Assembly: GCA_028286395.1 (NCBI GenBank)
Contig: JAQBRS010000001.1
Span: forward strand, 1-64,000
Reading direction: 5' to 3'
Source: Candidatus Saccharimonadota bacterium
GTDB taxonomy: Bacteria > Patescibacteriota > Saccharimonadia > Saccharimonadales > Saccharimonadaceae
Length of the DNA stretch: 64,000 nucleotides
Below are positions 12,912 through 18,408 of the stretch, one piece after another; the first letter of the stretch is position 1; each line of letters opens with the position of its first letter. The position numbers were made by a program, and so were the translations under genes. The notes beneath the pieces are model-generated. The model was not told the DNA's origin. It ran no database searches and was given only the letters and a program-made list of their open reading frames with translations.

Positions 12912-13291
12912 TGGTGGAGCTGCCGGGTACTGCCCCCGGGTCCGAAAGGTAACCTGCTATTCGTCTACAAGCGTAGCCTTAATTGAGCTTTACGTTGTTC
13001 CGTCCAGCCTCAAACAAAGGCTAAAATGACTGGAGGATCGCGCTGAAAGGTGTCCCAGATAACCGCAGCTGCCCGGCTAAGAGGTAAGAAGCATACTTAT
13101 AACACCGTTTTCTCTATGCTTCCTTGAGAAAAATCGATGGCTTAGGCCGCTAGGGCGAAAGCTGGCGCTTGGAATGCAAATGCACTCTTCAGCTTAGCAA
13201 ATGTGTTTGCAATTAAATTGTGCACGTAACGTGTGCGGTCGGCTTGCAAAATAACCTGTTAAAGTCCTCTCGTCGAAGCTATATCAGCCCC
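12912..13291 (-). ncRNA. ssrA: transfer-messenger RNA (tmRNA)
   Basis: 5' GGGGCTGATATAGCTTCGACGAG, 3' ..GGACCCGGGGGCAGTACCCGGCAGCTCCACCA; acceptor stem GGGGCTG/CAGCTCC with G3.U pair; tag ORF 13210-13142 ANTFAKLKSAFAFQAPAFALAA*. Confidence 0.95.
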
Positions 13292-16848: not shown

Positions 16849-16892
16849 CTCAACTAAAAAAACCACCCGAATGGGTGATTTTTTTAGTTGAG
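16849..16892. terminator. very long terminator hairpin overlapping the 3' end of RNase P RNA
   Basis: CTCAACTAAAAAAA-c-CACCC-GAAT-GGGTG-a-TTTTTTTAGTTGAG. Confidence 0.85.
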
Positions 16893-17227
16893 CAGTCCGT
16901 CTGTAAGCCGGGTTTTGTCGAGGACGACCATCTATCTAGCCCCACGATTGCTCGTAGGATCAAGCGGGTAGCGACCAACGGACGGATAGCCCTTGTATGT
17001 TGATCTCCTTGCAGCTGGCAGGGTTTACCTTCTCCATATGTCACCATATGACGCTGTGGGCTCTTACCCCACTCATTTCACCCTTACCTCCGAGGAGGCG
17101 GTTTTGTTTCTGTGGCACTTTCCCTACGGTTGCCCGCGGTTGCCGTTAACAACTGCCGTTATCCTATGCTGCCCGGACTTTCCTCTTACTTTTTGACGGC
17201 AAGCGGTCGTCTAACGAACTGCCTATC
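16888..17227 (-). ncRNA. rnpB: RNase P RNA (type A-like)
   Basis: GAGGAAAGTCCGGGC, AGGGTGAAATGAGTGGGGTAAGAGCCCACAGCG, GTAAACCC, 3' CCCGGCTTACAGACGGACTG; TATAAT at 17232-17237 upstream. Confidence 0.94.
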
Positions 17228-17245
17228 GGACATTATACACTAAGC

Positions 17246-18139
17246 CTAAGCTTTTATCTGGTCAGTGCGTTTGTTCATATGTTCATCAAGCGTCTTATTG
17301 ACCATTCCGTCAGCTAATTGATTGAACTCTCGCTGGACATGGTTGAAGGTTACCTTATCGAATTGTTTCATCAATTCTCGGATACGTTCGTGGACTGGCC
17401 ATAACTCACGGTTCTTGATTTTGTAGTAGCCTTTCATTTGGTTCACGACCAACATGCTGTCAATCTTGAAGTCGATACGCTTGAATTTCAGCTCTATGGC
17501 TTTCTCCAGTCCAATGCGAACGCCGTGGTATTCAGCTTGGTTGTTGGTCGTAATGCCAAGGTATTCGCCACCCTGTGCAATCACCTGTTGTGATGCATCC
17601 AACACGACAAATCCCGCTGCAGAAGGCCCTGGATTGCCCCGTGATCCCCCGTCCGAATAGATTGTTACCGTATCAGATGATGTGTTTTTTGCACCAGAAA
17701 CTTTAACTGTTTTAAATGTCTGATCTGTTATCTCTTCTTGCTTGATAATCCCAAGAAGCAATTGTGTCAAATCGGTTAATTCATTCTGTTGAAACTCTGA
17801 CAACAATATATATTTGTACTTATTATAATTTCCACTGAGTCTAATCGGGTGATTCGTCTCAACCGGCGTCACTAGATATACCACGACGGCGTACTGAATG
17901 CCTCGATCGTCGTGGTCGATATAGGTCACCGCGTCGAAGAGTTGTGCCGACTTAATATGAATCCCGACATCGTCATGAAGGTAACGACGGAGCGCGTCTT
18001 CCGGCTGTTCGTTGTAGGCAAGCTTCCCGCCAGGAAGCTCATACTGCCCCAAGATTGTCGGACGACCGTTGGCACGACGAAGCACCAAAGTCTTGCCTCT
18101 GTCGTTGATAATTGCTCGAACTGATAAACGTTGTTTCAT
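17246..18139 (-). CDS. fusion of a Nudix-like domain and an RNase HI domain
   Basis: N-term GQYELPGGKLAYNEQPEDALRRYLHDDVGI; C-term IYSDGGSRGNPGPSAAGFV, NNQAEYHGV, KIDSMLVVNQMKGYYKIKN, NQLADGMVN (RNase HI DEDD). Confidence 0.88.
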   Translation of the reverse strand: MKQRLSVRAIINDRGKTLVLRRANGRPTILGQYELPGGKLAYNEQPEDALRRYLHDDVGIHIKSAQLFDAVTYIDHDDRGIQYAVVVYLVTPVETNHPIRLSGNYNKYKYILLSEFQQNELTDLTQLLLGIIKQEEITDQTFKTVKVSGAKNTSSDTVTIYSDGGSRGNPGPSAAGFVVLDASQQVIAQGGEYLGITTNNQAEYHGVRIGLEKAIELKFKRIDFKIDSMLVVNQMKGYYKIKNRELWPVHERIRELMKQFDKVTFNHVQREFNQLADGMVNKTLDEHMNKRTDQIKA

Positions 18140-18180
18140 TTTTTTATGTTATTTTCCGTTCATATATATTGTAGCATAAG

Positions 18181-18382
18181 AAAAACTCACCTTTTTCGAG
18201 ATGAGTTTTGATTAACAATCGTACTATGTGCCCAAGGGAAAACGGTAAGCGTTATGATATTCCCCGCTTGTGTGCAAAGGTGGTTGGCCTCAGCCCATCT
18301 CCACAGAGACGGACAATTCGACTTCCCTATCATATGATATCGGAAAATCATATGCACTTACAGTTTTTTGCCCCTTAGGCAC
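18181..18382 (-). ncRNA. candidate standalone structured RNA (~200 nt, rod-like, 6S-like architecture)
   Basis: Extended -10 TGATATACT (18388-18393) 6 nt before 5' end; closing stem GUGCCUAAGGG/CCCUUGGGCAC with U.G pair; rod continues AAAAC/GUUUU, GUAAGUG/CGCUUAC, UAUGAU/AUCAUA, UUCC/GGAA; apical GUCCGUCUC-UGUG-GAGAUGGGC; terminator AAAACTCATCTCGAAAAAGGTGAGTTTTT. Confidence 0.7.
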
Positions 18383-18408
18383 TTCTTAGTATATCACCAG
18401 AATACTGA

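Follow-up and report, generated by a model that had tools for sequence, protein, structure and literature searches.

A probable divergent 6S RNA gene, with conserved mutually exclusive helices, in a saccharibacterium

The minus strand of the window, the 64,000-nucleotide stretch of a Candidatus Saccharimonadota genome (contig JAQBRS010000001.1) analyzed here, carries a conserved gene for a rod-shaped RNA with a covarying structure, homology to 6S RNA and conserved mutually exclusive helices. Taken as a whole, these observations leave us with little doubt that the locus is the divergent 6S RNA gene (ssrS) of this saccharibacterium, whose product is most likely a polymerase-binding open-promoter mimic. 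6S RNA, which is called nearly universal, is a known family, and the saccharibacterial RNA is a new divergent member of it; an open-access literature search returned nothing that joins 6S RNA with Saccharibacteria, Saccharimonadia or the candidate phyla radiation. If the assignment is true, very small epibiotic genomes retain a global RNA-based brake on transcription, and this can be tested in cultured Saccharibacteria, whose transcription shifts between the free and host-attached life stages are little understood.

The original prediction, made from the sequence alone, had described a stand-alone non-coding RNA with 6S-like architecture. This description was correct, and the evidence now goes beyond it to homology. 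The minimum free energy (MFE) structure of 18382→18181 on the minus strand has -75.2 kcal/mol and z = -6.2, with 0 of 200 shuffles equally good, while the plus strand of the same stretch folds more weakly (-61.3, z = -4.6). The predicted 33-bp rod appears in this structure, consisting of 12 bp (GUGCCUAAGGGG/UCCCUUGGGCAC), a 4-nt bulge and then 4 + 7 + 6 + 4 bp, and so does the apical 9-bp hairpin with the loop UGUG. In the window MFE the central bubble has partly collapsed to form the inner helix P2, which means that the predicted ground state differs from the open one. The elements of the gene are as follows:

18388..18396, minus strand: putative extended -10 promoter element TGATATACT of the RNA gene, ending 6 nt ahead of the first stem base
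18228..18382, minus strand: 6S (ssrS) RNA body of 155 nt with closing stem, central bubble, upper stem and apical hairpin (fold with z = -6.2; matches of the covariance models R1 and R2 described below)
18371..18382, minus strand: closing stem P1, 5' strand GUGCCUAAGGGG (fold; double-sided changes in relatives)
18228..18239, minus strand: closing stem P1, 3' strand UCCCUUGGGCAC (fold; covariation)
18279..18327, minus strand: upper arm GGGAAGUC ... GAGGCCAACCACC, bearing the 6S core GGGA/CCCACCU (covariation; match to the RF00013 core in relatives)
18293..18314, minus strand: apical hairpin GUCCGUCUC-UGUG-GAGAUGGGC (fold; double-sided changes in 9 of 10 pairs in the wider order)
about 18178..18209, minus strand: predicted hairpin and U-tract terminator of the window copy (sequence, fold)

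The -10 element lies where the original prediction had placed it, and relatives keep it in this position, at equal distance, with TATAAT or a closely similar sequence. The U-tract terminator expected at 18181 fared less uniformly, since a separate hairpin terminator is found in the window copy and near relatives, whereas in most relatives (16 of the 22 from the family) a T-run comes right after the closing stem, which therefore probably doubles as the terminator. The RNA is about 155 nt long, or about 200 nt if its end is the distal terminator. Judged from its own promoter and terminator and from the conserved -10 and T-tract, it appears to be encoded by a stand-alone, single-copy gene with a sigma70-type promoter and independent termination.

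A DNA search located the RNA in 23 of 61 genomes, the own genome and relatives included. One of these sequences (L022) was dropped as a short 24-nt match, which left 22 family sequences for the alignment and for the covariance model R1 built from it. Invariant or nearly invariant blocks in the 22 sequences are AUGAUUUUCC, AUAUCAUA, CCACC and GCGGGGAAUAUC, and the TATAAT-type -10 stands at a fixed distance. The closing stem varies with compensation, both sides having changed in seven of the eight counted pairs. Over the whole structure 95.3% of the cells are paired (85.0% in shuffles), and the covariation score of 0.447 (0.231 shuffled), attained by 0 of 500 shuffles, is lost when the partners are slid against each other. 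The covariation for which the original prediction had asked is thus present.

The same picture emerged for the order. R1 matches the window at 18224-18382 with 140.7 bits and finds a match in 125 of 198 order genomes, at a single place in all but one; under strict filters the remaining 73 of the 198 gave no match. With the phylum search described below taken into account, two separate matches per genome were seen in G305 (C9, C39) and G362 (C1, C16), possibly 6S paralogues or mixed assemblies. When 37 more divergent order sequences, the window excluded, were realigned (alignment A4) with the rod structure, 91.4% of the cells were paired (73.8% shuffled), double-sided changes occurred in 21 of 27 pairs, and the covariation score reached 0.555 (0.220 shuffled). 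The upper-arm helix is 97.7% paired in this wider set, with double-sided changes in five of seven pairs. RNAalifold did not recover the closing stem in the wider order set, because the variable ends had been misaligned by MAFFT. The exact 19-base core ATGATTTTCCGATATCATA is present in genomes of Candidatus Saccharibacteria and Candidatus Microsaccharimonas; a single additional exact match, to Enterococcus canis, is what chance predicts for a 19-mer, given the size of the collection.

How, then, is the RNA linked to 6S? An Rfam search of the locus in the window gave no 6S hit and only chance-level matches, RF00013 found nothing in the own genome even at E 10, and the RNA sequence of the window itself does not reach the Rfam gathering score. 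No other Rfam class matches at the locus either, and the original prediction passes this test as well. The link is provided by orthologues. RF00013 matches 16 of the 198 order genomes, and R1 marks the same place in all 16. At the homologous place in L014, L016, G068, G091 and G113 the RF00013 match runs end to end. The best score in the order relatives is 43.9 bits against a gathering cut-off of 46.4, and 0 of the 198 genomes lie above it. The core common to the RF00013 alignments in orthologues is GGGAG...CACCCACCU plus the 3' hairpin. The original prediction had seen no 6S primary-sequence signature; this has to be revised, since with the relatives at hand an AUAGGGA...CCCACCU core matches the Rfam 6S consensus.

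A second covariance model, R2, was built from the 37 divergent order sequences, i.e., trained without the window, and nevertheless recognizes the window with 48.2 bits (E 1.1e-10). Across the phylum R2 matches 108 of 287 genomes and RF00013 matches 22, three of them above the gathering score (60.2, 56.3 and 55.4 bits). R2 places coincide with 20 of these 22 hits, all three above-threshold ones included. As models derived from different sequences converge on one stretch of 150 bases in genomes about a megabase in size, chance is not a reasonable explanation. Homology to recognized 6S RNA is in this way established by covariance models within the orthologous group. Neither R1 nor R2 matches E. 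coli ssrS; E. coli is too distant for these models, and the link to 6S runs through other Patescibacteria. In practical terms, the Rfam cut-off recognizes 6S RNA in three of the 287 phylum genomes sampled and in 0 of the 198 order genomes, i.e., it misses the RNA in every searched genome of the order, while the lineage models find it in 108 and 125 genomes, respectively.

The three above-threshold patescibacterial members of RF00013 (L145, L146 and L147) share the common core with the saccharibacterial RNAs. Their closing stems are nearer to canonical 6S, with the GUUCG/CGGCA motif in L146 and L147, and the AUGAU template strand is not conserved in them. Gene order points in the same direction as the models. 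In the window, an M50 peptidase gene (PF02163) lies upstream of the RNA and a fused NUDIX-RNase H protein is encoded downstream, exactly the position given in the original prediction. An M50 protease gene is located upstream on the same strand at 21 of 22 family loci and 34 of 37 order loci and, in the rest of the phylum, at 15 of 33 loci, among them L145 and L147 and hence two of the three above-threshold 6S loci. This agreement supports the identification as 6S RNA.

With E. coli 6S and B. subtilis 6S-1 RNA (RF00013) the saccharibacterial RNA shares the rod with closing stem, central bubble and apical arm, here 155-200 nt long, the GGGA...CCCACCU core of the Rfam consensus, CCGA at the predicted pRNA start, and a single-copy gene with its own promoter; with E. 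coli 6S RNA it also shares the competition between a P2 helix and a 3' bubble hairpin. It differs in that it is shorter (about 155 nt) and falls below the Rfam cut-off, that its closing stem lacks the GUUCG/CGGCA motif, that a U-tract follows directly after this stem in most relatives, and that pairing of the 5' bubble strand with the template strand is possible as well. One natural 6S RNA of about 160 nt is known (PMC9130861).

In the central region the predicted template strand lies beside the bubble in a replaceable helix, P2. The following elements are relevant here:

18342..18351, minus strand: inner helix P2, 5' strand AUGAUUUUCC, nt 32-41, predicted pRNA template (invariant in the 22 family members; covaries in the wider order)
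18339, minus strand: predicted pRNA start, U44 of CCGAU, by comparison with E. coli ssrS; the register could be nt 44-46
18326..18341, minus strand: central bubble, 5' side, nt 42-57, which can pair back on AUGAU to give an alternative 5' hairpin (covariation, folding)
18262..18280, minus strand: 3' central-bubble hairpin CCUUUGC...GCGGGG, mutually exclusive with P2 (folding with the template sequestered; covariation)
18254..18265, minus strand: P2, 3' strand GGGGAAUAUCAU, containing the -10-like UAUCAU (invariant columns; covariation)

Nucleotides 40-44 are CCGAU, and the same motif is present in E. coli ssrS, the sequence of which was confirmed against annotated genomes and in which U44 is the pRNA start. 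The pRNA of B. subtilis is GUUCGGUC (PMC8876501), and its template is accordingly GACCGAAC, likewise with CCGA. That two mutually exclusive folds exist had been proposed before and is confirmed, each of them being conserved. With the template strand barred from pairing, mimicking bound pRNA, the computed probability of the 3' hairpin rose in 20 of 22 relatives and was at least 0.8 in 18; it stayed near 0.6 in L007 and L010, and L008 and L011 showed no rise.

As a mimic of an open promoter, 6S RNA binds the housekeeping holoenzyme, with the -10-like part in the 3' bubble and pRNA being copied from the 5' bubble and the 5' strand of P2, and it is released by refolding, which involves a 3' hairpin in E. 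coli and a collapse helix in B. subtilis (PMC8876501). Sigma70 region-2 proteins are encoded in the genome studied here. From the homology to 6S RNA we infer polymerase binding, pRNA synthesis, release and the physiological role: the RNA most likely binds the sigma70 RNA polymerase, serves as template for a short pRNA starting near nt 44 and is set free when its central bubble refolds. By mimicking an open promoter it would occupy the active site of the holoenzyme and repress housekeeping promoters when nutrients are short. Once nucleotides are back, the polymerase would use the 5' side of the bubble as its template, starting at about U44, to make a short pRNA with the predicted start AUCGGAAAAUCAU / AUCGGAAAAUC, and this synthesis would melt P2 (AUGAUUUUCC/GGGGAAUAUCAU). 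The freed 3' strand could then form the 3' bubble hairpin (CCUUUGC/GCGGGG), upon which the RNA would depart from the enzyme.

The most unusual feature is the two-way complementarity of the template strand, which in the wider order additionally folds back to pair with the distal 5' bubble. Column 51 of A4 co-changes with both of its partners (U-A in 16-18 sequences, A-U in 11). It is conceivable, although we regard it as rather doubtful, that saccharibacterial 6S RNA represents a distinct mechanistic subtype, in which the template AUGAU(U/A)AUCU retains complementarity to two competing partners at the same time, forming P2 with the 3' strand and a local hairpin with the distal 5' bubble, and the free RNA alternates between two states, a closed rod and a cruciform with two hairpins. 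If true, this would add a third control of polymerase binding or release to the 3' hairpin of E. coli and the collapse helix of B. subtilis.

A 6S-derived RNA need not have remained a pRNA template. Ms1 RNA, which is structurally related to 6S and found in Actinobacteria, where 6S is missing (PMC9130861), binds the core enzyme without the primary sigma factor, and the saccharibacterial RNA resembles it in its 6S-related architecture and in an RNA polymerase partner, which in our case is putative; moreover, the closing stem of the saccharibacterial group is unlike that of typical 6S RNA. We nevertheless consider an Ms1-like function improbable, since the template strand is invariant in 22 of 22 family members and the template/release switch has been conserved, and since there is a match between the core and the 6S model. 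A sequence match between Ms1 and the saccharibacterial RNA was not found.

A role as 5' leader or riboswitch for the Nudix-RNase HI gene at 17246-18139 is even less likely. The RNA is located directly upstream of this gene in the window and contains mutually exclusive helices, both of which would suit a leader. Yet it has its own terminators and a promoter-like box precedes the downstream gene, so that the doubt already voiced in the original prediction about a simple leader holds. Furthermore, several relatives have a tRNA gene downstream of the RNA, just 3 of the 33 phylum loci were seen to have the Nudix-RNase H gene as a neighbor, and homology is to 6S RNA.

A signal recognition particle (SRP, 4.5S) RNA or another housekeeping class has hardly any probability left. 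The rod shape would fit and the genome contains no other SRP RNA match, but even at E 10 the locus is not matched by SRP models, the orthologues match the 6S model, and, unless the protein was missed, the SRP54 GTPase domain is undetected in the genome. The same is true of a functionless inverted structure that arose by chance or resembles a repeat. Nothing speaks for it beyond the palindromic AUCAUAUGAU, covariation refutes it, and z = -6.2 and the conservation of one copy across many families with compensatory changes also speak against it.

The original prediction had seen no SRP apical signature. The SRP RNA models RF00169 and RF01854 were rejected as candidates: neither matches in the own, 99%-complete genome, and the SRP54 GTPase domain of Ffh/FtsY was not detected there. 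Among 81 genomes the SRP54 Pfam cut-off was passed by four, three barely and one strongly (G009, 1.3 Mb). Saccharibacteria of this order may thus be devoid of a signal recognition particle.

Some further observations concern the neighborhood of the 6S RNA gene. The protein encoded at 17246-18139 (minus strand) consists of an N-terminal NUDIX domain fused to a C-terminal RNase HI-like domain, and its gene is found near the RNA in most family members. A tRNA gene lies directly downstream of the RNA at seven loci (L004, L006, L007, L009, L016, L020 and L023) and is absent there in the window; judged by its GGG anticodon region it probably encodes tRNA-Pro. Genes for class A RNase P RNA (16888-17222, minus strand) and tmRNA (12912-13291, minus strand) are also located nearby in the window, and RNase P RNA is encoded close to the 6S gene in several relatives, so that housekeeping non-coding RNA genes cluster in this region.
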